Shown piece by piece: positions 1,828-21,095 of a stretch of 23,097 bases of DNA. This DNA is from a virus. Within the stretch, counting starts at the first letter, position 1; each line of letters opens with the position of its first letter. The stretch spans positions 1-23,097 of IMG/VR virus record IMGVR_UViG_3300030108_003424, one strand, 5' to 3'. The notes under the pieces are model-generated. The model searched no databases. It saw nothing but the letters and a program-made list of their open reading frames with translations, and had not been told where the DNA came from. The translations under genes were made by a program, and so were the position numbers.

Positions 1828-1829
1828 TG

Positions 1830-2210: not shown

Positions 2211-2212
2211 TA

Positions 2213-5488: not shown

Positions 5489-5489
5489 A

Positions 5490-7106
5490 CTAAATATCTT
5501 CTACGTTTAGTTGAAAATCTAAAATATTTTCTGGTTCATCTTTTTTTGTTGTCGAACCAGTAGATTCTCTATATCTTGGTCGATTTATAAATTCTTGATA
5601 AACGTCTTCTTTTCCAAAACGATCTGCAAAGTTTTTACGTTTATACGTTGATGTATCTTGACCGTCAGTAAATTCAAAATAATATTCAAAAAGATTTAAC
5701 ATTCTATCAGAGTATTTATCTCCTGTTTTAAACCTTGGTAAACGACCGACTGCTAAAGTTGAAGCTAATCCTGCATCATTTTGTTCTATTGTTGTTTCTA
5801 TAAACTCTACTAAATTACTATATAAAACTTCAGCGTTTTGCGTAGCTCCGAAACCTATTTGTTGTAAAAAGAACGCTAAATCTTTATCTGATAATGTTCT
5901 ACCAGTTTGTCCTGCAGTAGCTGCGGCACTATAAGCTAATTGTAATAATAAACTTCTAGTTCTAACTTCAGCAAACGCTAAATCTCCTAACGCTTCTTTT
6001 ATAGTGTTAAATTTACCCGTTGCTGCCATTGCTCCTGATTTATCAAACTGTTCTATCGCTGCATCTATTTCCGCTTGATTACCGCTTCGTAATGCTTCAA
6101 TTAATGCTAAAGCATTTTGTCCTGTGCCTTGTCGACCTATACTTCCTCCAATACCTTGACTAACATCTACGGGCGTAGCGAATAACTTTTCGCCTCCTGT
6201 TGTTACATAAATTTGTTCAAAATTTGATAAGATACTATCAGCAGCTTTTCCTAAATTAGCTACTAAAGTAGTTGGATTCATTGCAGGGTCGTCTATACCC
6301 TCCTGTAATAAATCTAATGCTGCATTACCAGCGACTAAAAATCTCAAAGTATTAGTATCTTGTTCTTGTATTTTTAAATCTAATTCATCAAATTTTGATA
6401 AACCTACTTTATCTAATTTATTAAAATCAAGAGTTTCTTCTAAAACTTTTACGTCTACAAAATTTGTATCTGGTAATTCCAAAACATTTATATATTCAGT
6501 TCTATCGTCATTTAATACAGAATAACCTTTTTTAGGATCGAATTTACCTTGGCGAATATCCATGATACCGTATTTTGCTTTTTCTTGATCTACTAAAGTT
6601 ACTCGTTGATCAGGTTCATCTTTTATTTGTTGTGCGATAAAATTTTGTCTAGCAGTTTCAGTAAGGTTAGCACGGTCGCTTCTAGCTTTATCAAAAGAAC
6701 TAGCGGTATTAATAAATGCTGCTAGTTCTTGGTCATTATCAGTAAGTAACGCAGGTAAATATTGCGTAGCTAAATCTCCAATACGTTGACCTGTGGTTTG
6801 TGTTCTTCTAGGACCGTAAATTTGTTCAGCTAAGTATTCTGCTTTCGCTAAATCACTAGCGTCTTCATCAGGAACAGGTAAGGGGTCTGCTTTACTAGAA
6901 AATAATTTATCAGCTAAAAAACTTAAACCTACTGGTGCAAGATATGCTAACGGATTTATATCGTCTCTCGGCGGGGTAGTAAACGTTCTACCACTAACGT
7001 TAGGAAATCTAGGAGCCGTAGGAGTTAAAGTAACAGGTGTAATACCACCTGCTGTATCACCACCGAACGTTGGAAAAGGACGTAAACCTGCTATACCGTT
7101 AGTCAT
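5490..7106 (-). CDS. Putative ejection/internal virion protein with GRTLSDKD motif (538 aa)
   Basis: Unknown function. The N-terminal 60 residues are Pro/Gly/Thr-rich and probably extended, followed by a short hydrophobic stretch (AYLAPVGLSFLADKLF) and then mostly helical sequence. Around residue 400 there is the motif GQTGRTLSDKDLAFFLQQIG, matching the GRTLSD motif repeated in the 237-aa protein at 1114-1827. The region around it is Ala/Leu-rich (LLLQLAYSAAATAGQTG). It is the middle member of three neighbouring large genes that I read as an ejection-protein set, with one- and two-base gaps to its neighbours. The start at the ATG at 7106 directly follows the upstream stop, with no clear Shine-Dalgarno, consistent with re-initiation. 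Confidence 0.78.
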   Translation of the reverse strand: MTNGIAGLRPFPTFGGDTAGGITPVTLTPTAPRFPNVSGRTFTTPPRDDINPLAYLAPVGLSFLADKLFSSKADPLPVPDEDASDLAKAEYLAEQIYGPRRTQTTGQRIGDLATQYLPALLTDNDQELAAFINTASSFDKARSDRANLTETARQNFIAQQIKDEPDQRVTLVDQEKAKYGIMDIRQGKFDPKKGYSVLNDDRTEYINVLELPDTNFVDVKVLEETLDFNKLDKVGLSKFDELDLKIQEQDTNTLRFLVAGNAALDLLQEGIDDPAMNPTTLVANLGKAADSILSNFEQIYVTTGGEKLFATPVDVSQGIGGSIGRQGTGQNALALIEALRSGNQAEIDAAIEQFDKSGAMAATGKFNTIKEALGDLAFAEVRTRSLLLQLAYSAAATAGQTGRTLSDKDLAFFLQQIGFGATQNAEVLYSNLVEFIETTIEQNDAGLASTLAVGRLPRFKTGDKYSDRMLNLFEYYFEFTDGQDTSTYKRKNFADRFGKEDVYQEFINRPRYRESTGSTTKKDEPENILDFQLNVEDI

Positions 7107-7108
7107 AA

Positions 7109-8452
7109 TTAAAAGTACCCTGCGTTACCTAAATTAGGAAGTGTTGAATAATTTACTGCGGGCATCATCATTGGTGGATTTAAACTAGGCAATCCTGCAG
7201 CAGGAGCACCTATACTTCCAGGAAGAGTATTTTGTCCAGGAAGACCACCTATATTAGGAGCAAAAGCTCCTACCGTTGGTTGTGAACCTCCAGCAAAACC
7301 ATAACCACCTGCTAACGGTCCTAATGAAGCGGTTAATGCTCCAACATTTTGTAATGTTTGCATTGGTAAATTGTATTGACCTACAAAATTTTGATATGCT
7401 AAATCTAATAAAGACTGTTCTCTGCCTCTACCTAGTCCACCAAGAGCCATTTGTTGACTTATATCTTGTGCTTGTAAAGCAGGTAATGTAGTAGCTAATC
7501 CTTGATATTGTTGTCCTAATGCTCCTAACCCTTGACCTAAACGTTGTCCTAAATTAGCTAAACCAGCACCGCCTTGTAAGCCCATACCAAACTCAGCTTG
7601 TCCAAGTCTACCTAATTGTTGACCCTGTCTTAACGCGGCTTGAGCTTCGGCACTACCTAACTGTCCTTCTCTAGCAGCTAATTGTCCTTGTAAACCTGCT
7701 AACCCTAATTGTCTACGTTGCTGAGCTTCAAACGCTTGTTGAGCAGCATTTCTAGCTCCTTCAAAACCTTGACTACGAATTGCTCCTACTTGTTGAGCGG
7801 CACCTCTTGCCGCATCTTCAGCTAATTCTTCTTGAGTTAATCTAGAACGAGCACCACCAAAAGCTCCTGCTCCTATCGCTTGGTCGCGTAAACCAATATC
7901 GGCTTTACCAAAACGTTCAGTAATATCATCTAATGTTTGCTGTACTACTTGTTCTTCAAAAGGGTTATAGAAATTACTAACTTGTTGGTTAGGGTTGAAT
8001 ATTCCTGTTGAGCCATAACCACTAAGTTCTGCTCTACCTAAACCACCACGAGCAGCAGAAAAATCAGGACCTGCTCCTCTAGTAAATCCTGCTGCTTCTC
8101 CTGTTAGCCCACGTCCTGCTGCTAATCCTGCAGAAATATTTCGTCCACCTATATCAGCAGCACTACGCATAGTGCCTGTCGCTTCGGATAATAAATTTCT
8201 TTGTTGATTTAAAAAAGGTTGATAACTGCCAATACCTTGATCGGCTAATTGCATACCTCTAATTTCTCTAGGGTCAAAATCAGCTACCCGTTGACCTGTA
8301 TAGGTAAATGGGCTAGTGTCATCGCCACCTAATTGTCCAAACTGTTGTCGTAAAAACCCTTGAGCAAGAGGAAAAATATCTTTTTGTAAAAAATCGCCTA
8401 TATAACCCGCGGGGGCTTGGGTCGAATATTCTTGTTCTTCTCTACTAGCCAT
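7109..8452 (-). CDS. Gly/Gln/Ala-rich internal virion protein, likely DNA-ejection type (447 aa)
   Basis: Low-complexity Gly/Ala/Gln/Leu-rich protein with a central coiled-coil region (about residues 215-330, runs of LGQ, QLGRLGQ and AAREGQLG). A more conserved block near residues 160-205 reads FYNPFEEQVVQQTLDDI then GAGAFGGARSRLTQEE; I know this arrangement (NPY/NPF...QAVxAGAFGGSR) from uncharacterised structural proteins of many marine and other short-tailed phages, usually next to ejection or tail genes. The C-terminus is Pro/Met-rich. The start codon overlaps the upstream stop by eight bases. Role as an internal or ejected protein is inferred from family memory and neighbours; a tail or assembly function is the alternative. 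Confidence 0.82.
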   Translation of the reverse strand: MASREEQEYSTQAPAGYIGDFLQKDIFPLAQGFLRQQFGQLGGDDTSPFTYTGQRVADFDPREIRGMQLADQGIGSYQPFLNQQRNLLSEATGTMRSAADIGGRNISAGLAAGRGLTGEAAGFTRGAGPDFSAARGGLGRAELSGYGSTGIFNPNQQVSNFYNPFEEQVVQQTLDDITERFGKADIGLRDQAIGAGAFGGARSRLTQEELAEDAARGAAQQVGAIRSQGFEGARNAAQQAFEAQQRRQLGLAGLQGQLAAREGQLGSAEAQAALRQGQQLGRLGQAEFGMGLQGGAGLANLGQRLGQGLGALGQQYQGLATTLPALQAQDISQQMALGGLGRGREQSLLDLAYQNFVGQYNLPMQTLQNVGALTASLGPLAGGYGFAGGSQPTVGAFAPNIGGLPGQNTLPGSIGAPAAGLPSLNPPMMMPAVNYSTLPNLGNAGYF

Positions 8453-9530
8453 ATTTTCTATTACCTTGTTTATTAAATTTTTCTAACATAGCGATACCTT
8501 TCTGATGATTGCCTTTACCTAGATGTTTTACCGCAGCGTTAGATAACATAAATTCACCGTCACTAGCCATAACAGGTATTAGATCATCTTTAGGACCTCC
8601 TGGACCTTCAATATCGCCACCATCTAACATAGGTTTAAACATAGGTCTATCTAACGTTCCGCCGTTTTTAAAACCTCTACTACCTGCAAAAGCCGTACCA
8701 GTTATCGGTCGTATATTTCTTAAATAATCTCGTTTTGTACCTAAACCACCTGCAGGTAATGTATTTGTTGATTGTATAGTAACTCTACGAGTAGGTTCGT
8801 CCTCTCCTAAAATTTCACTAGCTAAACGTTGTCCTAATGCGGTGCCTATTTGATTTATAGAACCCGCAAATAATTCTTGTGTTTCAGGTGAAAAACGACT
8901 CATAAAACTATCGAAACGTTCTCTTAATGTAGGATTTAAAGTAGCGTCTAAGGAAGCTAAACCAGTTTCCTTCATTAAATCACCATCTATTTGCATAGGC
9001 ATAGAACTGGTACTATCGTATAAATCTACATCTTTAGTTTGTTTAAAATCTATATCAGGAATTAAATCCATAATACCTGTTTTTTCAGGTCCTTCTGCTA
9101 ATAAAATTTTTTTAAATTCTTCTAATTCTTTAGCGTCTAAATCTAACAAACCACCCTCTTTCTCAAATTTAGCTATAAGTTCTTCAATACTTAATTCACC
9201 GCCATTAGCAGCATTTAGGGCTCCACCAATAGCCATTCCTGCAATACCAAGTTTACTTAAATCGCTAAGATTTATTCCTGCGTCTTGTAACATGGTTAAA
9301 ATTTCTTCTTCCTCTCTTGCAGGTTTAGCAGGATCATCATAAGTAAATTCTCCAAATTCTTTTACTTGACTGCCTTCCACGGGAGTAATTTGTGCGTCAG
9401 GTCCAGGAGATAAACTAGGTGCAGTACCTGCTCCAATAGAAGTCGGTTGTTCAGGTTCACCTAAAATTTTATTAGTAGCAACATTTGTTGCTACTCCTAC
9501 AGCTATTTGAGCTAGTATATTTCCTAACAT
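8445..9530 (-). CDS. Virion-associated protein with C-terminal DGEF/NGG motifs (361 aa)
   Basis: Unknown function. The N-terminus (residues 1-25) is a hydrophobic, Gly/Ala-rich helix (NILAQIAVGVATNVATNKI) that may insert into a membrane. The middle is acidic. The C-terminal 80 residues hold GFKNGGTLDRPMFKP, then GPGGPKDDLIPVMASDGEF and LSNAAVKHLG; this GPG..DDxIPxxxSDGEF element recurs at the ends of phage tail or virion proteins, where I know it only as a conserved motif of unknown role. First gene after the 85-base gap and promoter candidate, with a clear AGAGGA Shine-Dalgarno before the ATG at 9530. Overlaps the next gene by eight bases. Probably leads the ejection-type gene set. Confidence 0.8.
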   Translation of the reverse strand: MLGNILAQIAVGVATNVATNKILGEPEQPTSIGAGTAPSLSPGPDAQITPVEGSQVKEFGEFTYDDPAKPAREEEEILTMLQDAGINLSDLSKLGIAGMAIGGALNAANGGELSIEELIAKFEKEGGLLDLDAKELEEFKKILLAEGPEKTGIMDLIPDIDFKQTKDVDLYDSTSSMPMQIDGDLMKETGLASLDATLNPTLRERFDSFMSRFSPETQELFAGSINQIGTALGQRLASEILGEDEPTRRVTIQSTNTLPAGGLGTKRDYLRNIRPITGTAFAGSRGFKNGGTLDRPMFKPMLDGGDIEGPGGPKDDLIPVMASDGEFMLSNAAVKHLGKGNHQKGIAMLEKFNKQGNRKYG

Positions 9531-9606
9531 TATTTCCTCTGCGTTTATTAACGTATTAGCGAGTTAAAGCCCATCTCGTAAGCTGCAGTTCAGTACTGAC
9601 AATTCG

Positions 9607-9635
9607 ATTATACTTCATACTGTATATATTTTTAA
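9607..9635 (-). promoter_or_regulatory. Candidate sigma70-type promoter before the ejection-type genes
   Basis: On the minus strand a perfect TATAAT (9607-9612) is preceded, at 17 bases, by TTAAAA (9630-9635, four of six match to TTGACA). It lies at the end of the cyclase gene and points into the 85-base gap 9531-9614, the longest non-coding stretch between minus-strand genes. The gap also holds the perfect palindrome TCAGTACTGA and a CTGCAG, but no hairpin followed by a T run. AT-rich DNA yields such boxes by chance, so the placement is the main support. Confidence 0.45.
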
Positions 9636-11372
9636 AGGTTTTTCTTTGCCTTTTACTTTTATAGGTTTTAATGGTTTTAGATAATAACCACATTTACTTT
9701 CCGTATTTTCACCTATTAAAATATCTACCCCCGCGTCTTTTGTACCTGATTCTAATCTAGCTGCAGTGTTTACCGCGTCACCAATAGCGGTATAATCAAA
9801 TCGTGAGGAAGACCCCATATTACCGATTACTGCTTCTCCTGTGTTTACTCCTATGCCTATGGCTACTGCAGGAAGTCCTTCCGCTTGGAGTTCTATATTA
9901 AGGTCAGCCATATTTTGCCAAATATCTTTAGCACAATCTACCGCTATTTGTTCATGATGTAATACGTCTAAAGGAGCATTAAATATAGCCATCATAGCGT
10001 CGCCTATGTATTTATCAACCATACCACCGTGTTTTTGCACTGCTGCTTGTTGAGCGGTAAGAGCTTTATTCATAATATAAGTTACTTTTTCTGGCGTTAC
10101 AGCTTCTGATAAAGCGGTAAACCCTCGTACATCGGTAAATAAAAAAGTAGCGTATCTTTTTTCACCACCTAATTTTAATAACTCAGGATTCTTTTGTAGC
10201 TGTTTTACTTGTCTAGGGTCTAAGTAATGTTCGAATTGTTTTTTAATTTCTAAACGTAATTTATATTGTTCACGAAAACGTAAATAAAAAGCAATCGTTC
10301 CTGTTATAAATTCACTAATTAAAGTCCACGTTGTATCTATTAATAATCCTTGTTGTATAGCATAATATCCTCCGATAGCGGTGCTAGACATAATAGCACT
10401 AAAACAAAGAACCCCTGCAGTAACGCCTAAGTTGCTCAACACAACCCAAACTAAAAGCAGGGATATAACTAATATTAAAACTTCAACGGCTAAACTGTAG
10501 TCGGGGATAAATGGACTATTTTCTACCAATATTGATTCTGCTAGTGCTGCTTGTACCTTGTGTGGTTCAAGTAATCCAACTGGGGTAGCTAACTGTGGCA
10601 TTACGCCCTCAGCAGTAACTCCTACAAAAACAAATTTATTTTGTACGGCTAACTCTTGCATATTAGTTTCTGGAGTATCTACCCAACTAACCCACTTACG
10701 TCCTAATCCGTCCGTTTTAACGGCAGGTAAACCTTTTACCCGTACTTCTTCTATACCGTTCGTATTAGTCTTAATAACGTACGTATTAGCCCCTGTTAGG
10801 GCTTTTAGTACTTCGGTACCGAAAGCGGGTAACCACCCGTTAGGCGTCTTATATAGAAGCGGTATACGTCTAACTAAGTTATCTACGTCTACGGGAGCCG
10901 TAGCTATACCTTCATTTGCTTCTAATTCAGGTATATTTCTTACCGTGCCTTGAGCTAAATAACCACCGTTGCCTTCACCCATAATAACGGTGCCTACCGT
11001 ATCTGGGTATTTACCATTAGCGTTTTCGAATAAAGCTAATACCGAAGGAGCATAACTAAGAGCTATTTTAAAATTACCGTCGCCACCAAAACGGTCTTTA
11101 TGTGGAAAGCCAATAACCCAACCAACGCCTAAAGCTCCTCGGTTTAACAATTCTATTTGTAATTCTGCTAAACGTTGTCTAGGAAAAGGATAACCACCTT
11201 CATTATTAACATCTTCTTCAGTGATATTTAAGATAACAAAATTACCAGAAGGTTCAGGAGTCTTTACAAAAGTATCAAAAGTTTTTAATTTTAATATTTC
11301 TTGCGGAGCTAAACTAAAAATTAACGGTAAACTTAACACCGTTATTATTACAATAATTTTTAAATACTTCAC
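9615..11372 (-). CDS. CHASE2-domain class III adenylate cyclase, membrane sensor
   Basis: Predicted to sense a periplasmic signal and make cAMP from ATP in the cytoplasm. N-terminal membrane helix (residues 1-22), an extracytoplasmic CHASE2 domain (about 30-285, with FDTFVKTPEPSGNFVIL and GYPFPRQRLAEL, typical CHASE2 features), three membrane helices (about 291-365) and a class III cyclase domain (405-585). Catalytic residues by eye: metal-binding Asp414 (LFTDVRGFTALSE) and Asp458, adenine-selecting Lys454 (VDKYIGDAMMAIF), Thr528 at the second purine position (FDYTAIGDAVNTAARLE), transition-state Asn535 and Arg539. Thr at that position is typical of class IIIb cyclases, some of which respond to bicarbonate. 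The start is GTG at 11372, overlapping the fecR-like stop as GTGA, with AAGG six bases upstream. CHASE2 cyclases next to FecR proteins are a known bacterial pairing; its presence among phage late genes is the surprise. A central part is locally about 45% GC. Confidence 0.95.
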   Translation of the reverse strand: MKYLKIIVIITVLSLPLIFSLAPQEILKLKTFDTFVKTPEPSGNFVILNITEEDVNNEGGYPFPRQRLAELQIELLNRGALGVGWVIGFPHKDRFGGDGNFKIALSYAPSVLALFENANGKYPDTVGTVIMGEGNGGYLAQGTVRNIPELEANEGIATAPVDVDNLVRRIPLLYKTPNGWLPAFGTEVLKALTGANTYVIKTNTNGIEEVRVKGLPAVKTDGLGRKWVSWVDTPETNMQELAVQNKFVFVGVTAEGVMPQLATPVGLLEPHKVQAALAESILVENSPFIPDYSLAVEVLILVISLLLVWVVLSNLGVTAGVLCFSAIMSSTAIGGYYAIQQGLLIDTTWTLISEFITGTIAFYLRFREQYKLRLEIKKQFEHYLDPRQVKQLQKNPELLKLGGEKRYATFLFTDVRGFTALSEAVTPEKVTYIMNKALTAQQAAVQKHGGMVDKYIGDAMMAIFNAPLDVLHHEQIAVDCAKDIWQNMADLNIELQAEGLPAVAIGIGVNTGEAVIGNMGSSSRFDYTAIGDAVNTAARLESGTKDAGVDILIGENTESKCGYYLKPLKPIKVKGKEKPLKIYTV

Positions 11373-12523
11373 CCTGAACCTTGTCTAATATTTATTGTAG
11401 AATCACTACCACCGTTTACTTTAATTTCATTCATCACGCCGTCTTGTTCTAAAATTACAGTGTAGCTATTGTCGCTATCTATATTTAATACCGCACCTTG
11501 TCCTACAGTTCTATTTAAACTTATTTGTGCTCCAGAAACTACTGTGGTTATCTGAGTTTTAGTGTCTTGACCAATGTTAGTGCCTCGAATAGTAGAAGAA
11601 ATAGCTGATTGATCAAGCTGATCTTCGTCTGTTAAACTGTCTAGTTCATTTAAAATATTTAATAAATCTTCTAAAAAATTTACATTTAACGCATCGTAAT
11701 CTAATTCAGTAAAATCTAACTGTTCTTCTTCTTTTAAGTTTTCTTCTGCTAAATAATCAAAATCTAATTCATTAAAATCTAAAATAGGGTCTTTTATTTC
11801 TTGTGTTTCTTCTTCTTCTGTTTTTATTACTTTTTTAGGCGGTGTAACAATTAACATATTATCAATAAAATCTAATGACAAATCTAATAATACAGGAGGA
11901 CTCGGCGTTGCTTCTAAGGTAGTTGTCGTTGTGGCTTGATATGCTTGGTTTAAAATTACCTCACCCATAGCCGTACTAACTACTATTTCTCCAGAAGGGT
12001 TACCAAATTCATCAGGTAATAAAATAAATAAACTTTCACCCGTGTCGGGTTCTACTGTAATAGTAAAATCTGTTCCTCTAATCGCTACCGTAGCTGAGTC
12101 CGTACGAATAGTCATATTTTCTTTTGGAATACTACTAAATTTAGCAGTTACAAAACGAGCCGTGCCTTTAGCAAAAGATAACGCTAACTTACTTTTTGTT
12201 GGGTTAGGGTCGTAAATGTATTCGTCAATAATTAAAGTAGAATGTTCTGTTAGTTTAACTTTACTATCGTCAGCAAAACGTAAACCTAATCTACCTTGTT
12301 CAGTTTTAGCCTCATCGTTAGATTGTAAATTAAAATCAATTACTGCTTTATAATCTTTATCACGGCTTATTTGTCCGTAACCTGAGACTTCTTCTACAGA
12401 GCCGATGTTAAGGGCAACTGGTTGCTGTGCCTTGATCGTTTTGGATAATACAGAAAGTACCATTAGAACCATTAGAAATGACACGTAACCAGTCGTTATC
12501 GAGTGTTGACGCCTGTGTAACAT
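11369..12523 (-). CDS. Secreted FecR-domain protein with curlin-like C-terminal tail
   Basis: Signal peptide (residues 1-32: RR..., hydrophobic YVSFLMVLMVLSVL, cleavage near IKA|QQP), then a FecR-type domain (about 38-195; GRLGLRFADDSKVKL, LSFAKGTARFVTA, IRTDSATVAIRGTDF are its usual landmarks). Residues 230-305 form a very acidic region with an imperfect repeat (DFNELDFDYL / DFTELDYDAL). The last 45 residues (340-384) resemble curlin repeats: EQDGVMNEIKVNGG followed by STINIRQGSG, i.e. the Q-x-G-x-x-N spacing of CsgA/CsgB. It could therefore be a periplasmic or exported protein that associates with the curlin product. There is a 116-base overlap with the upstream curlin gene; the AGGAGG is 14 bases from the ATG at 12523, with the palindrome GTTCTAGAAC between. 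A later start at 12472 (Met18) would leave a short signal sequence and is less likely. Translationally coupled to the cyclase. Confidence 0.9.
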   Translation of the reverse strand: MLHRRQHSITTGYVSFLMVLMVLSVLSKTIKAQQPVALNIGSVEEVSGYGQISRDKDYKAVIDFNLQSNDEAKTEQGRLGLRFADDSKVKLTEHSTLIIDEYIYDPNPTKSKLALSFAKGTARFVTAKFSSIPKENMTIRTDSATVAIRGTDFTITVEPDTGESLFILLPDEFGNPSGEIVVSTAMGEVILNQAYQATTTTTLEATPSPPVLLDLSLDFIDNMLIVTPPKKVIKTEEEETQEIKDPILDFNELDFDYLAEENLKEEEQLDFTELDYDALNVNFLEDLLNILNELDSLTDEDQLDQSAISSTIRGTNIGQDTKTQITTVVSGAQISLNRTVGQGAVLNIDSDNSYTVILEQDGVMNEIKVNGGSDSTINIRQGSG

Positions 12524-13118
12524 TTATAGTTCTAGAACCTCCTGTGTGGTTTAAATGAAAAAAGCCTCCTTGAAAACCATCACCGTTATAGTTAATGGTG
12601 TTATCAGAACCATCAACGTTCATATAGTTAGTAGCCAAGTCTACATCGATATCGGAATCAATAGTATTGTTTGAACCGTTGATGATCCAATCTAAATCTA
12701 ACGTAGTAGCTAATGCTGCGGTGCCTTGGTCTAAAGACATATCGTTAGCTGTTCCTGTTACTGAAATATTTACGTTAGAGCCGTCAGTCGAATAAGTGTT
12801 AGTAGGGTCTGTTTGAATATCGAAAATATTACTAGAACCAGAAAATTCAAAAAACCCAATATAATTATCAGCGTTAATATCTCCTTTAAATAAATTACTA
12901 GAACCTATCTGATTGATATCTAAGGTCATGTTAGTTCCGTCTAAATCTAGTGGCGTCATGCTCCCTGAAGTAGATAAAACCCCTCCAATTAAGTTACCTG
13001 AACCTAGCTGTTCTATATCTGCGTTTAGGGTTGCTCCTGATTGATCAATAGATATTTCGTTATCCGCAGACCATAAAAAATTAGATAAAACTATTAACAA
13101 AAATAATTGTTTTTTCAT
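12408..13118 (-). CDS. Secreted curlin-like repeat protein (candidate CsgA-type fibre subunit)
   Basis: Signal peptide (KKQLFLLIVLSNFLWSA|DNE) followed by about 210 residues with seven or eight degenerate repeats built around an x-G-S-x-N-x-hydrophobic core: IEQLGSGNLIGG, INQIGSSNLFKG, FEFSGSSNIFDIQ, IINGSNNTID, VDGSDNTINY, ISNGSNGTFCIIQ. The first two repeats keep the classical curlin pattern Q-x-G-x-x-N. Rich in Asn, Asp, Gly, Ser and Thr, as expected for a beta-solenoid amyloid subunit; only two cysteines, both near the C-terminus (TFCIIQND...SCP). The ATG at 13118 overlaps the csgG stop as ATGA with a GGAG nine bases upstream; a TTG at 13133 is the weaker alternative. Placed directly after csgG, where its secretion pore would be made. 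Curlin identity is by motif, so moderate certainty; secretion is well supported. Confidence 0.85.
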   Translation of the reverse strand: MKKQLFLLIVLSNFLWSADNEISIDQSGATLNADIEQLGSGNLIGGVLSTSGSMTPLDLDGTNMTLDINQIGSSNLFKGDINADNYIGFFEFSGSSNIFDIQTDPTNTYSTDGSNVNISVTGTANDMSLDQGTAALATTLDLDWIINGSNNTIDSDIDVDLATNYMNVDGSDNTINYNGDGFQGGFFHLNHTGGSRTINVTQASTLDNDWLRVISNGSNGTFCIIQNDQGTATSCP

Positions 13119-13960
13119 TGTTTTAAGCTCCAATATTCGTATTGTATTCCTTCCATGATGGTTTTGTAAACTGCTGTTTCTATGGCTGCTTGTAGGGCTA
13201 TAGTTACTCCTTCGTTCTCTACGTTACCGTTTTCTATCTCTATTAACCTAGTATTATCTTTTACGAAACGGAAAACATCTTGATTAATACCTACGCTTAA
13301 AATAGTTTTAGTAACAGTAACTTCTGTTAAAATACGCCCCGTAAGCACAGAAACCGTGCGTAAACTTATTGTAACTGTATCTTGTCGGTATTCTTTACTT
13401 ACCCCAATACCTAATATTCTACCTCCCGAACCACCTGAACGAGTATTAGTTTCATAACCAACTACCGCACCTTCCATTAAAATACCTGCAAATAATAAAG
13501 GTTTTAATTTTTGTTCTTCATCAAAGTCTTTTCGTGTACTACGAATTAATTGTCGTTCTTTAGTTAAGTTATCTAAACCAACGCGTTCTACTACTTCGAA
13601 AAAATTACCTTTGCTAGTGTCTTTTAATGCTTTTATTAATAATGCGTAAGGGGCTTGAGTAACTGCGGTGCTAAAAGAAGCATAAGTACTATTACTTCTA
13701 CGTTGTCCTGTTTGATCAGTAAACGCGGTAGGATATACCGCTACCACGGGTTTTATATTTGGAATTCCTAAATTACTTAAGTTTTCATTAATGACTTCAG
13801 AAACCTCTGCATATCTTGAAGGTTCTAAATTTTCTATCGCTTGTTCTGTTTTTAATAAAGCACAACTAGAAAGTAAAACTATCAAGAGGAAAAGTAATGA
13901 TCGTTTCGTTGCCGTCAGCATCAGTGATAGTAAGTGTAATCGTAGTATCATCAGCAACAT
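13115..13960 (-). CDS. csgG: CsgG, curli secretion pore lipoprotein
   Basis: Outer-membrane lipoprotein that in E. coli forms a nonameric pore exporting curli subunits (type VIII secretion). Lipobox LLSSC with Cys33. The body follows E. coli CsgG closely by eye: AVYPTAFTDQTGQ, FSTAVTQAPYALLIKALKDT, GLDNLTKERQLIR, LLFAGILMEGAVVGYETN, SGGSGGRILGIG, TVTISLRTVSVLTGRIL, TKTILSVGINQDVFRFV. At the constriction loop the Phe corresponding to E. coli Phe56 (FSTAV) is kept, while Asn55 appears as Ser and there is one extra residue beforehand. 281 aa against 277 in E. coli; the E. coli C-terminal extension is missing and the N-terminus is longer. The ATG at 13960 has AGGA six bases upstream; the ATG at 13921 would give a conventional 20-residue signal peptide but has no good Shine-Dalgarno. 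Overlaps csgF by 95 bases (56 with the shorter start). Confidence 0.97.
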   Translation of the reverse strand: MLLMILRLHLLSLMLTATKRSLLFLLIVLLSSCALLKTEQAIENLEPSRYAEVSEVINENLSNLGIPNIKPVVAVYPTAFTDQTGQRRSNSTYASFSTAVTQAPYALLIKALKDTSKGNFFEVVERVGLDNLTKERQLIRSTRKDFDEEQKLKPLLFAGILMEGAVVGYETNTRSGGSGGRILGIGVSKEYRQDTVTISLRTVSVLTGRILTEVTVTKTILSVGINQDVFRFVKDNTRLIEIENGNVENEGVTIALQAAIETAVYKTIMEGIQYEYWSLKQ

Positions 13961-14363
13961 AGTCTATCCTGTTTCCCTCTAATTCAATAGTACCTGCGTT
14001 AGAAGCAGTCTCTCCGAATAAATTATCTACTAATTGTTGTGATAGCTTAGCATAAACTCTAGATTCTAAATTTCTAATAAAACGGGCTAACGTGCTGTTA
14101 TTTTTATCTCTTTCTGCTTCATCTGCGGCAGCTTTTAAAGCATCTGAAATACTTTGTTTTCTTGTTTTTTCTTGATTTTCTATTGTTAAATAATGTGCTG
14201 AAGTTCCTACTCCTGAAAAACTAGGGCTTTTAAAAGTAAACTTCATTTCGTCTGCTTGGGTAACAGATGAATAAACTATAGCAAAAACTATAAAAACAAT
14301 ACCCGTGTACGCGAAAATATTTTCAATCGCTATTTCGTTCTTTGTTTTCTTTCGTTTCCTCAT
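13866..14363 (-). CDS. csgF: CsgF, curli assembly factor
   Basis: In E. coli CsgF docks into the CsgG pore, forms a second constriction and links the nucleator CsgB to the cell surface. Here a long basic N-terminus (residues 1-15) precedes a hydrophobic segment (16-33) and a cleavage site VTQA|DEM. The mature start EMKFTFKSPSFSG aligns with TMTFQFRNPNFGG of E. coli CsgF, the part that plugs into CsgG. The C-terminal half also matches: LSQQLVDNLFGE, GNRIDYVADDTTITLTITDADG and TIITFP correspond to the E. coli IVDIANRDGQLQLNVTD region. 165 aa against 138, the extra length being the N-terminus and a charged insert (about 66-95). Overlaps the upstream membrane-protein gene by 41 bases and the csgG gene by up to 95; the only other Met is in the mature region, so the start at 14363 is secure. 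Confidence 0.93.
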   Translation of the reverse strand: MRKRKKTKNEIAIENIFAYTGIVFIVFAIVYSSVTQADEMKFTFKSPSFSGVGTSAHYLTIENQEKTRKQSISDALKAAADEAERDKNNSTLARFIRNLESRVYAKLSQQLVDNLFGETASNAGTIELEGNRIDYVADDTTITLTITDADGNETIITFPLDSFTF

Positions 14364-14598
14364 CTTTTAATTCTCTTAACTCAATCACAGTATCTAGTTT
14401 TTGTTGTAATCTTATTAAATCATTGTCCAACATACGTACTCTATCGATTAAAGCTATTAACGTAACGTTAGCGTCCGCAAGTTTAGCTTTTATATTTTTT
14501 GTAATAAAGTTCCAAATATAATAAAGAATATACAGCAGCCCGACGGTAGCTACAATGGGAAAACCATATTCACTAATAATTACTGCAATATTTTCCAT
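14323..14598 (-). CDS. Small membrane protein with coiled coil, holin-like candidate (paralogue A)
   Basis: 91 aa: short N-terminal segment, one membrane helix (about residues 12-33, GFPIVATVGLLYILYYIW), then a charged coiled coil (LIALIDRVRMLDNDLIRL) and an acidic/basic tail. The EYGFPI-plus-helix start recalls small BhlA/YvrJ-type phage membrane proteins, some of which act as holins; that assignment is tentative. It aligns without gaps to its upstream neighbour at 14598-14879 (E10, GFPI 12-15, A49-L50, R53-V54, D60, I62-R63 identical), so the two are tandem paralogues. Their stop and start share a base (TAATG). An inner-membrane spanin of the Rz type has the same layout (helix then coiled coil) and is the main alternative. 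Confidence 0.82.
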   Translation of the reverse strand: MENIAVIISEYGFPIVATVGLLYILYYIWNFITKNIKAKLADANVTLIALIDRVRMLDNDLIRLQQKLDTVIELRELKDEETKENKERNSD

Positions 14599-14879
14599 TA
14601 ATCTCTACGAGCGTCGTTTTTACCATCGGCTCTTGCAATACGTTCTAGGTCAGGTCGAATACCTAACACCGAACACATAGTAGCATCAACACGAATCATA
14701 TCGTGATTCATAGTTTTTACTCTATTATCTAAAGCCGTAACAATATTATGAATACCGTCTACCTGACCTACGACGCTTTCTAAAATATATTTTACGGTAA
14801 GAAAAATAAAAAACCCGCCTAATAAAGACATGGCTATAGGAAAGCCAACTTCAGCTATTAATGTAAAATAGGTTTGCAT
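14598..14879 (-). CDS. Small membrane protein with coiled coil, holin-like candidate (paralogue B)
   Basis: 93 aa with the same plan as the gene at 14323-14598: EVGFPI at residues 10-15, a membrane helix (about 13-33), and a helical part with ALDNRVKTMNHDMIRVD at 49-65. It differs in the tail, which contains the only cysteine (MCSVLGI) and ends in a charged ARADGKNDARRD. The gene overlaps the upstream 62-aa gene by 22 bases. Two such proteins side by side could form a holin/antiholin or hetero-oligomeric pair; this is inferred from arrangement only. Lysozyme lies about 3.2 kb upstream in the same array. Confidence 0.82.
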   Translation of the reverse strand: MQTYFTLIAEVGFPIAMSLLGGFFIFLTVKYILESVVGQVDGIHNIVTALDNRVKTMNHDMIRVDATMCSVLGIRPDLERIARADGKNDARRD

Positions 14880-15046
14880 CGTTCTATATCTTCAACAGCT
14901 ATCGTTTCATCTAACATACCTACTACAATTACTCCATATTCTTCTGCTTGTTCTTCAGCTTCTTCAAAAGATTCAGCAACGATATTAGGACCTTCGTGAA
15001 TAGTTCCTCTAAACCTAAATTCTGTAAGGAATATTTTTAAAGACAT
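14858..15046 (-). CDS. Small acidic protein, unknown function
   Basis: 62 aa, acidic, no signal peptide or membrane helix. The N-terminus (MSLKIFLTEFRFRGTIHEG) looks like a beta-strand followed by an acidic helix (ESFEEAEEQAEEYG) and a second strand (VIVVGML), suggesting a small alpha/beta fold. I do not recognise the family. It is certain as a gene only by fit: start and stop overlap both neighbours (TAATG with the upstream gene, 22 bases with the downstream one) and no other frame is open on this strand. Confidence 0.72.
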   Translation of the reverse strand: MSLKIFLTEFRFRGTIHEGPNIVAESFEEAEEQAEEYGVIVVGMLDETIAVEDIERCKPILH

Positions 15047-15393
15047 TAATCACCGCCTTTAAAGTTTTTACTTTGTCCTGAAGTACCTGCGTAAATACCA
15101 AAAACTGCTGCCATGGCTCCTACTACGATTGATACTAATGCTGATTGTTCTAGGTTAGGTTCTGGTAATTCCATAAACCAAATAACAACTTTGTAAAGGA
15201 GTACGATATAAACACTTACAAAAATTCTAGGAAAAATACGCCATGCGTCTATAGTTTTAGCTAAATGTACCCAGTTTATATAAGGGTTTTCTCCTTTATT
15301 ATTAGGCGTAACATCTATATCTAATTCTAATTTCTTTTTTATTGGGGGTTCTCTTTCAACTATAGCGTTATCAGTTATTATCTTTTCTTCCAT
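15046..15393 (-). CDS. Two-helix membrane protein, holin candidate
   Basis: 115 aa: a hydrophilic N-terminus of about 50 residues, then two membrane helices (about 53-76, IFPRIFVSVYIVLLYKVVIWF; and 84-107, SALVSIVVGAMAAVFGIYAG) and a short KNFKGGD tail. Two helices, small size and the position near lysozyme and the coiled-coil membrane proteins make it a holin candidate, but similar proteins in marine phages are generally left as unknown. The ATG at 15393 has GAGG seven bases upstream and overlaps the nuclease gene by 16 bases. Confidence 0.78.
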   Translation of the reverse strand: MEEKIITDNAIVEREPPIKKKLELDIDVTPNNKGENPYINWVHLAKTIDAWRIFPRIFVSVYIVLLYKVVIWFMELPEPNLEQSALVSIVVGAMAAVFGIYAGTSGQSKNFKGGD

Positions 15394-15821
15394 GATGTAT
15401 CCTCTACTGGTGTAAATAAACCTAACTCGATAAGTTTAGCTCTATTAAGTAAATGGGTTTCTTCTACCTCTTGTTTATTTTGTCCATAATATGCTACTGC
15501 ATAATAACCATCAACCATAGCTTTATTTATATCTACGCCATCACAAACTACGGTGCCTAATACTCTACCGTATTTACCGCGGGAGTCTTTTAATTCTGTT
15601 CTAATAATTACTTGTTCTGCAGTATTTATAGCGTTTTGTAAATACGCTGCAGCTAATTTACCTCTAACTTTTTCGTCTTTATTTCTGGTTCTAGACTCTG
15701 GAGTATCAATAGCATATAATCTAACTCTAGTTTTAAAAGAAACATCAAAACCTAAATCTAAAATAACGTCTATAGTATCACCATCAACAACACGTTCTAC
15801 TGTACAGCTATATTCATACAT
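15378..15821 (-). CDS. Thermonuclease (staphylococcal-nuclease-like)
   Basis: SNase/thermonuclease-fold protein, predicted calcium-dependent cleavage of DNA or RNA. Motifs from the start at 15821: VERVVDGDTIDVILDLG (metal-binding Asp), RLYAIDTPESR (first catalytic Arg and Asp/Glu), KVRGKLAAAYL, and DSRGKYGRVLGTV (second catalytic Arg region). The length of 147 aa is typical of the bare domain. There is no signal peptide, so it acts in the cytoplasm of the infected cell unless released at lysis. I chose the ATG at 15821 because it has GAGG five bases upstream and begins right at the domain; the longer frame to 15914 would run back over most of the preceding basic-protein gene. Possible jobs are host DNA degradation or nucleotide salvage. 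Confidence 0.92.
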   Translation of the reverse strand: MYEYSCTVERVVDGDTIDVILDLGFDVSFKTRVRLYAIDTPESRTRNKDEKVRGKLAAAYLQNAINTAEQVIIRTELKDSRGKYGRVLGTVVCDGVDINKAMVDGYYAVAYYGQNKQEVEETHLLNRAKLIELGLFTPVEDTSWKKR

Positions 15822-16002
15822 TCCTGCCTCGCTTTTTAGTAGTAGTTCTTGCTTGTCTAAAGTTCTTTTTACTTGGTGCACCTTTACTTCCTGGTTTACG
15901 CATACGTTCACCACTACCCGCTTTTATACGTCTACGTTTTGCATGAATATTTGCCCACAATCCTGGACGTTTACTTTTACCTTTTTTACTATGTTTTGGC
16001 AT
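15814..16002 (-). CDS. Small basic protein, unknown function
   Basis: 62 aa, extremely rich in Lys and Arg (MPKHSKKGKSKRPGLWANIHAKR... RMRKPGSKGAPSKKNF). Similar short proteins with GLWANIHAKRxRIKxGSGERMRKPG are familiar to me from marine phage genomes, with no known function. The start ATG follows immediately on the stop of the preceding gene (TAAATG). It may bind DNA or be packaged with it, which is inference from charge. Confidence 0.82.
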   Translation of the reverse strand: MPKHSKKGKSKRPGLWANIHAKRRRIKAGSGERMRKPGSKGAPSKKNFRQARTTTKKRGRNV

Positions 16003-16287
16003 TTAACACTTCCATCTTCTTCTTGCTTGTCTCAACCTAGAATTAGGATTTTTTGCGGCTTTAGGAAACTTTTTCATTTGTCCTGCTGATCTAGCACAAA
16101 ACGATTTACGTCTCTTAGCTGCTTTACTACCTTTTTTGACTTTACCAGTAACAGCGGTTTTTAATTTACTTCCAGGATTCATACGTCTATACGCTTTTAC
16201 CCCTGCAGCAGTCATACCCGCACCTTTTTTAGTAGGTCTAAAATTCTTTTTATTACGTTTAGGCATTTTCGCCTGTTTTCTAGGCAC
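16003..16287 (-). CDS. Small basic protein with SFCARS motif, unknown function
   Basis: 94 aa from the preferred start, about one third Lys/Arg. Contains KKGAGMTAAGVKAYRR, NPGSKLKTAVTGKV and AAKRRKSFCARSAGQM followed by FPKAAKNPNSRLRQARRRW. This whole pattern is a conserved marine/cyanophage-type family without known function. The cysteines of SFCARS and the C-terminal WKC could bind metal. Start: GTG at 16287 with GGAG eight bases upstream gives MPRKQAKMPKRNK; ATG at 16266 is possible, while the long frame to 16323 overlaps the previous gene by 44 bases without a ribosome site. Confidence 0.82.
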   Translation of the reverse strand: MPRKQAKMPKRNKKNFRPTKKGAGMTAAGVKAYRRMNPGSKLKTAVTGKVKKGSKAAKRRKSFCARSAGQMKKFPKAAKNPNSRLRQARRRWKC

Positions 16288-16585
16288 GTCTTTTTCTCCT
16301 TCTTGTGGTTTTCTTTTTAGCAAACGTTCTTACATTAGTTGGTTTGCCTCCTGGATTACCTGCTGCTCTTTTTCTACGTACTGCACTTTTACGTTGTGCT
16401 GCAGTCATGCTTCTAGCTTTAGCTCTGGGAACACATTTAGGGTATTTTCTTTTAGATTTACCTTTAGCAGATTTACGCCCACATTTTTGAAACTTACCTT
16501 TTTTCTTAGGAGCACCTATATCAACCCAATCACCTTTAGGTCCTTTACCAAACCACTCTGTTAATCCACCTTTAGGTTTTGCCAC
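16280..16585 (-). CDS. Small basic protein with EWFG/CGRKSAKG motifs, unknown function
   Basis: 101 aa, strongly basic. It begins AKPKGGLTEWFGKGPKGDWVD and continues IGAPKKKGKFQKCGRKSA, KRKYPKCVPRAKARSMT and GNPGGKPTNVRTF. The two conserved cysteines (KCGRK, KCVPR) with aromatic and basic surroundings resemble a small zinc- or nucleic-acid-binding module; I recognise the family as a recurrent marine-phage protein of unknown role. Starts with GTG at 16585, with GAGG seven bases upstream, inside the end of the preceding gene (14-base overlap). Confidence 0.85.
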   Translation of the reverse strand: MAKPKGGLTEWFGKGPKGDWVDIGAPKKKGKFQKCGRKSAKGKSKRKYPKCVPRAKARSMTAAQRKSAVRRKRAAGNPGGKPTNVRTFAKKKTTRRRKRRA

Positions 16586-16874
16586 TTTTTTTCCTCGCTT
16601 TCCTAATAGCTTCTTTTCCGCGTTTAAAAATACTAACTACTTGTGTTTTACCCATGACTTTAGCTCTTTGTTCACCAACGGTAAGTATTTGTATTTTTCT
16701 AGCAAAAGGTTTTTTAACCTTTTTAACTTTAGCAACTGTTGCTCTAGCATCAGCAGGTGTTGCAAACTTAATTTTAACAGTGTCTTTAGGATTTTCATCT
16801 GTATATAACCTTCTACCAGACCCTTTTGGTTTTTTACCTGTGCCTTTTTTAGGGTCGCGTTTTTTCTTAGGCAT
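16572..16874 (-). CDS. Small basic protein, unknown function
   Basis: 100 aa, basic. The N-terminus PKKKRDPKKGTGKKPKGSGR is followed by RLYTDENPKDTVKIKF, an AxDAR/T helix and a second basic helix. The first half is well conserved in marine phage proteins of unknown function that I recall; the second half looks diverged. The start ATG shares a base with the stop of the preceding gene (TAATG). Confidence 0.84.
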   Translation of the reverse strand: MPKKKRDPKKGTGKKPKGSGRRLYTDENPKDTVKIKFATPADARATVAKVKKVKKPFARKIQILTVGEQRAKVMGKTQVVSIFKRGKEAIRKARKKSGKT

Positions 16875-17053
16875 TATTTATAGCCACCACCACGTTTCTT
16901 ATACGTACGTACTAACCAACCATTAGCATAAGCACTTGGATAAACTTTAAATTTACGTTTAGCTTCCGCTTTTACTCTTGCATATAATGCAGGATTAGTT
17001 GGCGTAGCTCCTTTTTTCTTTTTAGTTGTTTTCTTTTTCTTTTTTGCGGGCAT
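16874..17053 (-). CDS. Very small Lys-rich protein with YPSAYANGWLVR motif
   Basis: 59 aa, read directly from the sequence: lysine-rich head (MPAKKKKKTTKKKKG), then NPALYARVKAEAKRKFKVYP and SAYANGWLVRTYKKRGGGYK. The YPSAYANGxLVxxYxxRGG element is a well-known small module in phages and large DNA viruses, function unknown. The start ATG at 17053 has GAGG nine bases upstream, and the stop overlaps the next start (TAATG). Clear gene despite its length. Confidence 0.87.
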   Translation of the reverse strand: MPAKKKKKTTKKKKGATPTNPALYARVKAEAKRKFKVYPSAYANGWLVRTYKKRGGGYK

Positions 17054-17056
17054 AGT

Positions 17057-17227
17057 TTATTTCCTCTTTTTAATTGGTTTTCTTTTAGTTACTTTTTTTG
17101 CTGAACCATATCTAGTTTTTTGATCTTTATTGATTTTTTCTAGTTTTTTAGCTTGTTCTGCGTGTAACTTACTAGCTTTTTTCAACGCTTTTACAATCTC
17201 ATTTAAATCTTTAGTGTAATGTGGCAT
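17057..17227 (-). CDS. Very small Lys-rich helical protein, unknown function
   Basis: 56 aa, read directly: MPHYTKDLNEIVKALKKASK, a charged helix (LHAEQAKKLEKINKDQK) and a basic end (KKVTKRKPIKKRK). Likely a single amphipathic helix or coiled coil with a nucleic-acid-binding tail. The start lies one base after the stop of the 224-aa gene and the stop is three bases before the next gene, so it fits an otherwise unexplained gap exactly. No family recognised with confidence. Confidence 0.78.
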   Translation of the reverse strand: MPHYTKDLNEIVKALKKASKLHAEQAKKLEKINKDQKTRYGSAKKVTKRKPIKKRK

Positions 17228-17228
17228 T

Positions 17229-17903
17229 TTAATCTTCGTATAAATTATTAAATGTAATTGCAGGGTCTAAATAACTTTCATGACCTTCAGCAGAGTGTAC
17301 CCACTGAGAGGGTTTAAAGTCAGGTGCTCCATCACCTGTTACCCATAAAGCAGGACTTGTTGCTCTAACTCTGTTGTTAGGCAAAGCAACAAAGTTGCCT
17401 TTCCACTTACAATCTTCAGTTATATATAACACATGAGATTGTTTATGTTGAGCAGGGTCATCAGCAATATCGCTATCAGTATAGTCTACGGTAAACATAT
17501 AACGACCAGTATAAAACTCGCCGTCTATTTTACAAAGCCAAGGACTAGAACTGACTCTATCCATAATCACTATAGAATGGTTTCTTGATTCACAATCCCA
17601 AGGTTGAGCTAAATGATCTTCCATTGGTTCTGGGAAATCCTGACTAGGAATATCGGCAACTAATGCTTGTATTGGCATTCTAGCCCACATAGCACCGCCG
17701 TGGATATTACCTTCGTCATTATCGTCACAATTAGCTTCTTCTCCAGTAAAAACTACTTGAAAACTTAATGATCTATCAGGAATAGTAGTAACTGCTATTG
17801 CTAGTGCATGAATATACTCATCTTGGTATTCTTCATGGTTTTTAGTAAACTCTCGTCTAACCCAACATTTAAAATGCGGGATGTTACTTATTAAATAAGG
17901 CAT
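17229..17903 (-). CDS. Conserved phage protein of unknown function (224 aa)
   Basis: A conserved hypothetical of marine phages by my recollection: it starts MPYLISNIPHFKCWVRREFT and has YIHALAIAV, SFQVVFTGEE, GGAMWARMPIQALV, a central GEFYTGRYMFTVDY and ALPNNRVRATSPALW. Rich in Trp, His and acidic residues, no membrane segment, no recognised catalytic motif. It is the only mid-sized, non-basic gene within the run of small lysine-rich proteins. A structural role (capsid decoration or tail accessory) is possible but not shown. Ends one base before the 56-aa gene. Confidence 0.85.
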   Translation of the reverse strand: MPYLISNIPHFKCWVRREFTKNHEEYQDEYIHALAIAVTTIPDRSLSFQVVFTGEEANCDDNDEGNIHGGAMWARMPIQALVADIPSQDFPEPMEDHLAQPWDCESRNHSIVIMDRVSSSPWLCKIDGEFYTGRYMFTVDYTDSDIADDPAQHKQSHVLYITEDCKWKGNFVALPNNRVRATSPALWVTGDGAPDFKPSQWVHSAEGHESYLDPAITFNNLYED

Positions 17904-17906
17904 AGC

Positions 17907-18074
17907 TTATTTCTTTTTCTTTTTAAGAATTTTACGTTTTTTAGATTTTTTTCTTAAAGAACCGCCCTTAGACATTTTCCTTAAAGAACCACCTTTAGAC
18001 ATTTTCCTTAAAGAACCGCCCTTAGACATTTTCCTTAAAGAACCACCTTTAGATTTACGTTTGTGCATTGGCAT
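17907..18074 (-). CDS. Tiny Lys/Gly repeat protein
   Basis: 55 aa, almost entirely four copies of SKGGSLRKM (the last ending RKK) between basic ends. The start ATG at 18074 has a perfect AGGAGG six bases upstream, and that site also forms the last codons and stop of lysozyme (KGG-stop). The longer frame to 18140 lacks a ribosome site. The charge (about half Lys/Arg) suggests nucleic-acid binding or condensation. Strong translation is implied by the ribosome site; function unknown. Confidence 0.82.
   Translation of the reverse strand: MPMHKRKSKGGSLRKMSKGGSLRKMSKGGSLRKMSKGGSLRKKSKKRKILKKKKK
17953..18060. repeat. Four 27-bp tandem repeats in an A-B-A-B order
   Basis: Units at 17953-17979, 17980-18006, 18007-18033 and 18034-18060. 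Units 1 and 3 are identical; units 2 and 4 share two substitutions (ACCACCTTT in place of ACCGCCCTT), and unit 4 diverges in its last bases. The order fits a 27-bp duplication, divergence, then a 54-bp duplication. The length is a multiple of three, so each unit adds nine residues. Confidence 0.95.
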
Positions 18075-18076
18075 AA

Positions 18077-18520
18077 TTAACCTCCTTTTAATACACGTTT
18101 TTGTAATCTTACTGCTCTTTGTTTGACTTGTGTAGCCCAACGACTATCCATCATTTCCGTAGCAGCAAGTTCCCAGTTTCTTTCAGATAACGCTGTTAAA
18201 AATTTTTTAAACTTTTTTAATCGCGTAATACCTAAATTGAAACACATATTAGCTAACACTAATTGTATATCATCTGGTAACTCTCGCCACCAAGATAAAC
18301 TCCTATCTAACTCTTTAAAAACTATTTCTATATCGTTTTTAAAACACTCGTTAATTCTTTTAGTAGATATGGGTGTACCAACAGGTTCTCCCCATTCTTT
18401 GTCTTTATCTGTTATTAAGTGTCCTATTCCAAAAGTATGGTAACCAAGATGATCTAAATAAATTTCGTTTATACAACCCTCATCGACTTTTAATTCTTCT
18501 CTAAGTTTTTCTATGTTCAT
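18077..18520 (-). CDS. T4-type lysozyme (glycoside hydrolase family 24 endolysin)
   Basis: Muramidase that cleaves peptidoglycan at lysis. 147 aa. The catalytic triad of T4 lysozyme (Glu11, Asp20, Thr26) is matched by Glu14, Asp23 and Thr29 with identical spacing (VDEG, YLDHLGYHTFGIGHLI). The C-terminal lobe is also recognisable (ANMCFNLG, FLTALSERNWELAATEMMDS, RWATQVKQRAVRL). No signal peptide or signal-anchor, so it needs a holin to cross the inner membrane; candidates are the small membrane proteins at 14323-15393. The start is the ATG at 18520, two bases after the preceding stop. Confidence 0.96.
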   Translation of the reverse strand: MNIEKLREELKVDEGCINEIYLDHLGYHTFGIGHLITDKDKEWGEPVGTPISTKRINECFKNDIEIVFKELDRSLSWWRELPDDIQLVLANMCFNLGITRLKKFKKFLTALSERNWELAATEMMDSRWATQVKQRAVRLQKRVLKGG

Positions 18521-18522
18521 AA

Positions 18523-20726: not shown

Positions 20727-20748
20727 AGCTCATCGTATTATATCGGTA

Positions 20749-21093: not shown

Positions 21094-21095
21094 TT

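Follow-up and report, generated by a model that had tools for sequence, protein, structure and literature searches.

The curli genes of Escherichia coli are csgBAC/csgDEFG. In E. coli, as in the csgF-csgG-curlin loci of alphaproteobacteria, a CsgG pore and a CsgF protein go with a curlin-like substrate, and these three components are shared by the phage gene set described here. The set lies in a 23,097-base virus record (IMG/VR IMGVR_UViG_3300030108_003424), the whole of which was analysed and is called the window below. It differs from bacterial curli in being without CsgE and in having additional genes for a FecR-domain protein, a CHASE2 adenylate cyclase and small membrane proteins, called M. 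There is hardly any doubt that this cassette is the known curli-type (type VIII-like) set of pelagiphages, carried by a marine podophage of the HTVC023P type.

The closest described counterpart is the module of Wittmers 2022 (PMC9599517), reported from nine HTVC023P-type genomes and from pelagimyophages and expressed in metatranscriptomes. Its order is HK (one or two genes, labelled histidine kinase), CsgF, CsgG, CsgA/B, FecR, frequently a second CsgA/B, and adenylate cyclase. The window has the same genes in the same order, with one or two genes before CsgF in both cases. It holds one curlin-like gene, whereas many of the published genomes have a second CsgA/B, and its genes before CsgF encode small proteins with a single transmembrane (TM) segment and no kinase features; M is equated with the published 'HK' by position and copy number. 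The five-gene set from CsgF to the cyclase, which had seemed unfamiliar at the initial annotation of the window, was already published and is not new.

Two cultured phages, HTVC008M (KC465899) and Melnitz (MZ577097), share the set in the order M-M-CsgF-CsgG-curlin-FecR-curlin-cyclase. They differ from the window in having a second curlin-like gene, and their curlin, FecR and cyclase proteins show 29-34% identity to those of the window. These carriers make the purpose of the cassette testable. Sibling capture was proposed by Zaragoza-Solas 2020 (PMC7029224), and a lysis-related pore, with a pinholin-like role for CsgG, by Buchholz 2022 (PMC9004378) for Melnitz. Melnitz is said in the latter article to be without fibre genes; its deposited annotation names two curlin-repeat proteins, both of which were also found by the profile built here. 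In surveys, csgG or csgGF ranks first in abundance among the 'virulence' genes of marine phages (PMC7003362), makes up 32% of those found in seawater phages (PMC11309003) and is counted in the temperate viruses of sediments (PMC9636769); the cassette is undescribed in the available parts of all three.

The presumed sensor part of the cassette has a bacterial counterpart in a Burkholderia biofilm operon (PMC5192318), where a periplasmic FecR protein is paired with a CHASE2 membrane sensor, as in the phage. The output of the CHASE2 protein is a histidine kinase in that operon and a cyclase in the phage.

A conserved, strongly selected gene unit

The genes M1-M2-CsgF-CsgG-curlin-FecR-CHASE2/cyclase make up a single unit that is conserved, under strong selection and encoded on the same strand as the virion and lysozyme genes. 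They are part of a minus-strand array that runs from about 23,021 to 1,114. CsgF, CsgG, the curlin-like protein, the FecR-domain protein and the CHASE2 cyclase span 14363-9615, head to tail and with overlapping open reading frames (ORFs), the overlap being 4 nucleotides at CsgG/curlin and at FecR/cyclase. Phage genes flank them: lysozyme, SNase, a virion protein (phrog_3287, 5.2e-71), a tail fibre and a helicase. Pfam, PHROG and the ORF map agree with the initial annotation on this arrangement. The limits of 9615-14363 that it gave to the unit were too narrow, because M1 and M2 (14323-14879) belong to it as well. The genes are as follows (E-values in brackets):

14598..14879, minus strand: M1, 93-amino-acid membrane protein with one TM segment, a probable coiled coil and a C-terminal DARRD (PHROG 18771)
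14323..14598, minus strand: M2, 91-amino-acid paralogue of M1 with one TM segment (phrog_18771, 5.3e-28; holin family phrog_4898, 1.1e-4)
13866..14363, minus strand: CsgF-like pore partner with an N-terminal hydrophobic segment (Pfam CsgF, 1.6e-17; phrog_35372, 2.8e-46)
13115..13960, minus strand: CsgG-like outer-membrane pore lipoprotein with lipobox LSSC (Pfam, 8.7e-49; E. coli CsgG structures, 3.8e-42)
12408..13118, minus strand: curlin-like exported protein, predicted β-solenoid with repeated GxxN turns (Pfam Curlin_rpt, one repeat, 3.6e-5)
11369..12523, minus strand: FecR-domain periplasmic protein, signal peptide by eye (Pfam FecR, 3.7e-10)
9615..11372, minus strand: CHASE2 sensor and class III adenylate cyclase (Pfam CHASE2, residues 11-306, 4.5e-24; Guanylate_cyc, 5.2e-19)

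The Pfam matches of all five proteins from CsgF to the cyclase exceed the curated cut-offs. Four of the five match PHROG phage families strongly (cyclase 5e-121, CsgG 2e-66, FecR 1e-63, CsgF 3e-46), and the PHROG matches of the curlin-like protein are weak only.

The unit recurs in other phages. A CsgG scan of viral contigs gave 280 relatives, of which the best 80 loci were kept; many are near-copies, and the counts are of loci, not of independent events. CsgF was found in 80 of these loci, curlin in 78, M in 74-76 (two profiles), FecR in 68 and the cyclase in 45-46. Where the contig leaves room for the neighbour, it is present in 70/70 loci for CsgF, 65/65 for M, 67/67 for curlin, 59/59 for FecR and 30/37 for the cyclase, on the same strand and on the expected side throughout. 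The M genes, in one or two copies, lie upstream of CsgF in all 65. The linkage with curlin, FecR and cyclase genes that the initial annotation had offered as a check is thus borne out. In a scan of genome contigs there were two matches, in a Maricaulis metagenome-assembled genome (MAG) and in a Neomarinimicrobiota MAG, which are read as phage contigs in bins because of their M and SNase neighbours.

Selection was assessed as the ratio of nonsynonymous to synonymous substitution rates (dN/dS) in a codon analysis of the window genes against the related contigs L003 and L008. Ratios in the cassette are 0.01-0.03 for M1/M2, 0.06-0.13 for CsgF, 0.07-0.09 for CsgG, 0.06-0.07 for the curlin-like gene, 0.07 for FecR and 0.06-0.07 for the cyclase. 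The flanking genes gave 0.36 and 0.55 (tape-measure-like gene), 0.16 and 0.22 (P115, a small membrane protein described below), 0.27 and 0.10 (SNase), 0.13 and 0.16 (virion gene), and 0.10 and 0.09 (lysozyme). Less can be read from the comparison with the more distant L072 (45-67% amino-acid identity across the cassette): synonymous sites are almost saturated there, and the ratios that could be defined are 0.12-0.28.

The contiguity of the window, for which read mapping had been suggested, was confirmed with other assemblies in place of reads. L001, a separate contig of 54,989 bases, is 99.9% identical over 19,980 bases (window 3118-23097), unbroken across both cassette borders. The CsgF-side border is also spanned without a break by L002 (96% identity, window 9528-17053) and by L003-L005 and L007 (about 90%, window 9528-18024), and it is spanned by L008 (90.6%, window 9528-15822). 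On the cyclase side the match of these six contigs ends at 9528 and restarts within the tape-measure-like gene: compared with the window and L001 (window about 9505-9615), they have about 0.55 kilobases (kb) extra between that gene and the cyclase, the gene order being otherwise as in the window. In L003 the extra piece (11602-12147) is one ORF of 181 amino acids, cupin-like by eye.

Portal and DNA polymerase of L001 have the same top four matches, 023Pt_psg01, HTVC027P, HTVC023P and DSL-LC04. Because both proteins are closest to that group, the phage is by sequence likeness an HTVC023P-type pelagipodophage; its host is probably Pelagibacter. The cassette occupies a slot whose cargo varies and which, in the window, also contains lysozyme, basic-protein and SNase genes. 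The homologue of the virion gene at 18849-20726 is followed in HTVC023P and HTVC027P by a glycosyltransferase (1e-16 and 6e-11, respectively) and then by another gene, a hint that the slot takes up surface-modifying cargo. In 023Pt_psg01 only three small genes separate this homologue from the tape-measure-like gene. The tape-measure-like profile matched HTVC027P and 023Pt_psg01 and not HTVC023P, in which the far side of the slot is placed by position alone.

The pore proteins, the probable substrate and the presumed sensor

CsgG and CsgF were first annotated by their likeness to the E. coli proteins. CsgG aligns to the E. coli structures. A phmmer search of solved structures with CsgF gave no match at E≤1, and the NCBIfam model of E. 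coli CsgF is matched at 0.015 only, so CsgF is identified by its Pfam profile match, its PHROG family and its position. The LSSC lipobox of CsgG is kept in 18 of 19 representatives, and translation may begin at the ATG at 13921. A CsgG gene of 41% identity is found in OR851715.1 (1,499 bases), which is named as a Salmonella phage and is likely host DNA.

By eye, a signal peptide can be recognised in the curlin-like protein, and Curlin_rpt is found in 10 of 23 members of its family at E≤1. Its AlphaFold2 model is a β-solenoid (mean pLDDT 84.8, pTM 0.81), in which the GxxN turns are invariant or almost so among relatives. Two cysteines are invariant in all 21 alignment rows and lacking in HTVC008M and Melnitz; their invariance suggests a disulfide-stabilised end. 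VIA-align placed the model onto SufB/SufD and other β-helix proteins (best Z 17.4, root mean square deviation 2.7, 194 residues aligned), a likeness read as a shared solenoid arrangement of the predicted fold. The curlin-repeat structure 8c50 was matched by sequence only (E 0.91) and is not among the structural matches listed by Foldseek and VIA-align. With the Curlin_rpt match and the model, the protein is classed as a curlin-repeat substrate of predicted β-solenoid fold. Another phage contig, L142, carries a curlin-FecR-curlin set (130-3792) followed, by eye, by a PstS-like phosphate-binding gene.

Pfam FecR was detected in 21 of 21 members of the FecR family, and the model of the protein matches anti-sigma and PupR domains of FecR type (E 1e-4 to 6e-4); the C-terminal part (214-384, the last 171 residues) is poorly modelled. 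This part was considered as a curlin repeat that might act as a nucleator, for it has turns resembling Q-x-G-x-x-N, but the idea was rejected: Curlin_rpt matched 0 of 21 members at E≤10, and hhalign found no curlin repeat in it. The best matches of the FecR C-termini to a repeat profile are weak (-3.2 to 4.0 bits, with none in 1 of 23 members), and 5 of 23 score above 2.8, the 99% level of shuffles, the best shuffle reaching 7.8. The FecR-like protein had been counted as a second exported protein; it is periplasmic by homology and not an established export substrate.

The cyclase matches adenylate cyclases in the Protein Data Bank (PDB) at 1.4e-33. All 20 aligned rows have D414, D458, K454 and R539, and 19 of 20 have N535, Melnitz having Ser for Asn535. 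D414 and D458 are the metal-binding aspartates, which together with the Lys, Asn and Arg make up the class III active site, and by this alignment the catalytic residues are intact. The protein had been called a cyclic AMP (cAMP) sensor, a misnomer, as the cyclase makes cAMP and does not sense it.

The FecR protein and the CHASE2 cyclase rather likely act as one envelope sensor, to judge from the gene neighbourhoods of alphaproteobacteria and from the Burkholderia operon. Among the first 100 CHASE2 places in alphaproteobacteria, 23 have a FecR-profile match within 5 kb (about 0.6 expected, a rough uniform estimate), 13 of the 23 on the same strand. The test drew on 148 FecR places, of which 104 lay in genomes with numbers no higher than G198, and left out two rows from genome G002, read as phage contigs. 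It replaced a cruder motif test, which gave 1 in 30 with flanks and a regular expression that were too weak. FecR and CHASE2 were perhaps acquired as a pair. In L176 (6-2744) and L182, the latter with the cyclase end alone present, M genes come after a CHASE2 cyclase, and the almost 6 kb downstream contain no CsgG. What precedes the cyclase in L176 resembles an HlyD-type adaptor and has no Pfam match; the cyclase and M genes may here belong to a different secretion system.

The membrane proteins M1 and M2

M proteins have 85-117 amino acids; in 25 of 26 one TM segment is above threshold, followed by a probable coiled coil, which in M1 would lie on the cytoplasmic side. Neither HisKA/HATPase domains nor a conserved phospho-acceptor histidine is found in M1 and M2, the best His column of the family holding 8 of 26. 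No kinase family occurs among the 25 listed of the 34 Pfam families matched by 26 members at E≤1, and none in NCBIfam for the four members scanned. One weak coiled-coil match in the PDB (E 0.023) is a kinase-GCN4 fusion, and YvrJ is matched weakly by 11 of 26 (best 0.04). M1 and M2 are almost certainly not kinases. Two further small genes adjoin them:

15046..15393, minus strand: P115, small membrane protein (phrog_10198), a candidate holin
14858..15046, minus strand: P62, 62-amino-acid ORF between P115 and M1 (profile found in 14 of 80 CsgG loci; adjoining M in L001-L009 and L072)

The M family keeps close to the curli genes. A search of annotated phage proteins with M1 returned six records, every one a curli carrier, and the M profile matched 1 of 289 alphaproteobacteria, a MAG holding apparent phage contigs. 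Two scans with M (at least 566 and at least 577 relatives, 80 loci kept from each) gave 137 loci, among which at least two contigs are counted twice. CsgF, CsgG, curlin or FecR is present in 118; the contig ends within 1.5 kb in 10, five have the cyclase only and four none of these genes. In some loci (L144, L153 and L155 are examples) the cassette is inverted and the M pair still adjoins it.

A different neighbourhood is seen in L125, which is without curli genes and has the order P115-M1-M2-Rz (phrog_739, 2e-14)-Rz1 (phrog_812, 3e-11)-endolysin (6e-61)-terminase (by eye). By profile, L257 and L258 have the order P115-M-M-lysozyme, as in L125; the three look like one phage type, so that the case for a lysis module comes from few events. 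P115 lies upstream of the M pair in 25 of the 28 CsgG loci with two M genes and in none of the 37 with a single M. It seems reasonable to suppose that the M pair is lysis-related and consists of lysis-type membrane proteins. No description of M1/M2 as such was found in the available parts of the open-licence literature, which leaves out preprints and most subscription journals. In L165 (5399-6104) an M pair and two small membrane proteins precede a P115-like gene, with no curli genes in view; one of the small membrane proteins resembles an MscS fragment by eye and has no PHROG match.

Proposed function and further features of the window

The best overall explanation, favoured by a modest degree, combines late export of a surface protein, a sensor for the envelope and a pair of lysis-type membrane proteins. 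Late in infection, Sec would export CsgG, CsgF, the curlin-like protein and FecR, and the CsgG/CsgF pore would release the curlin-like β-solenoid onto the cell surface; such surface export is fairly likely. There the protein could change adhesion or access to receptors, so that superinfection is excluded or sister cells are held together. Acting together as a single sensor, FecR and the CHASE2 cyclase would translate the condition of the envelope or of the export process into cAMP, and M1/M2, as presumed inner-membrane proteins of lysis-module type, would connect the cassette with the machinery of lysis. Experimental priorities change if the 'histidine kinase' gives way to a putative pair of lysis-type membrane proteins and if FecR and CHASE2 are taken together as one presumed sensor.

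Several observations weigh against this explanation. CsgE (PF10627) was found in none of nine phage records (the window, six longer phage contigs, and the whole of HTVC008M and Melnitz), the E. coli control being positive, so that the cassette is not a canonical curli operon of E. coli type. CsgE reportedly increases the yield and is not essential (PMC7029224). Its absence makes the word 'complete' in the original description of a complete functional unit doubtful, while the fixed order and low dN/dS uphold a coherent multi-gene unit. The curlin glutamines are kept chiefly in the first repeats, with few canonical Gln repeats overall, and Foldseek of the curlin model against the PDB gave no match at E≤0.001. 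Phage profiles detected neither FecR, the CHASE2 cyclase nor M in the five alphaproteobacterial curli loci examined, which come from seven genomes with a CsgF match after leaving out G002 (read as phage contigs) and G187 (below the cut-off). Furthermore, 10 of the 23 alphaproteobacterial FecR-CHASE2 pairs are on opposite strands. The holin similarity of the M proteins is weak (M2 1e-4, M1 0.04; L125 pair 7e-4 and 0.0035). The low dN/dS of the cassette is evidence of function and not of special importance, because the flanking lysozyme gene is about equally constrained. According to its authors, Melnitz caused no clumping by cytometry or transmission electron microscopy (PMC9004378).

Lysis timing could itself be the purpose, CsgG in the outer membrane and M1/M2 in the inner membrane being pores or gates that set or execute lysis while the curlin-like protein and FecR-CHASE2-cAMP report the envelope state. 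The place of M1-M2 between a candidate holin and spanins/endolysin in L125 (between P115 and endolysin in the profile order of L257 and L258), the P115 gene before 25 of 28 M pairs and the pinholin-like proposal published for Melnitz (PMC9004378) agree with this. The 37 single-M loci with no P115 upstream do not, nor does a curlin-like gene conserved as strongly as the pore; CsgG, moreover, is by homology an outer-membrane lipoprotein, and a holin would not act there. Such a purpose is unlikely. A merger of the two ideas, an envelope-wide release programme in which curli-type export is coupled to M1/M2 lysis and a FecR-CHASE2-cAMP checkpoint reads the surface or envelope state and times lysis, appears quite unlikely.

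CsgG has also been regarded as an uptake pore that admits cofactors or iron complexes through the outer membrane, with FecR as an iron regulator (Zaragoza-Solas 2020, PMC7029224; Wittmers 2022, PMC9599517). The missing CsgE gate would suit this, but the conserved curlin-like gene and CsgF are left unexplained, FecR is accompanied by a CHASE2 cyclase, and no TonB receptor or sigma factor is found among the 17 window proteins scanned with Pfam, so that uptake is very unlikely. That exported amyloid coats virions or joins the particle is highly improbable: the cassette genes are indeed surrounded by virion genes of the same orientation, but export signals are present on the curlin-like protein and on CsgG, which should therefore leave the cytoplasm, where virions are assembled. 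As for a chimaeric assembly or decaying cargo, the sole point in its favour is the 0.55-kb difference from relatives just beyond the cyclase end; since the separate 99.9% contig spans both borders, the 96% and 90% relatives keep the order and dN/dS is low, it deserves next to no credence.

Elsewhere in the window, a row of small, strongly Lys/Arg-rich ORFs of 56-106 amino acids occupies 15814-17227. One of them matches DUF6321 (7e-13) and one DUF5872 (6e-10), and these small proteins are possibly DNA-condensing virion proteins. A 27-nucleotide tandem repeat in 4.2 copies (KGGSLRKMS units) is found at 17941-18053, inside a basic ORF overlapping with the gene for lysozyme, and a perfect 60-nucleotide tandem duplication at 1258-1378, within the ORF at 1114-1827.

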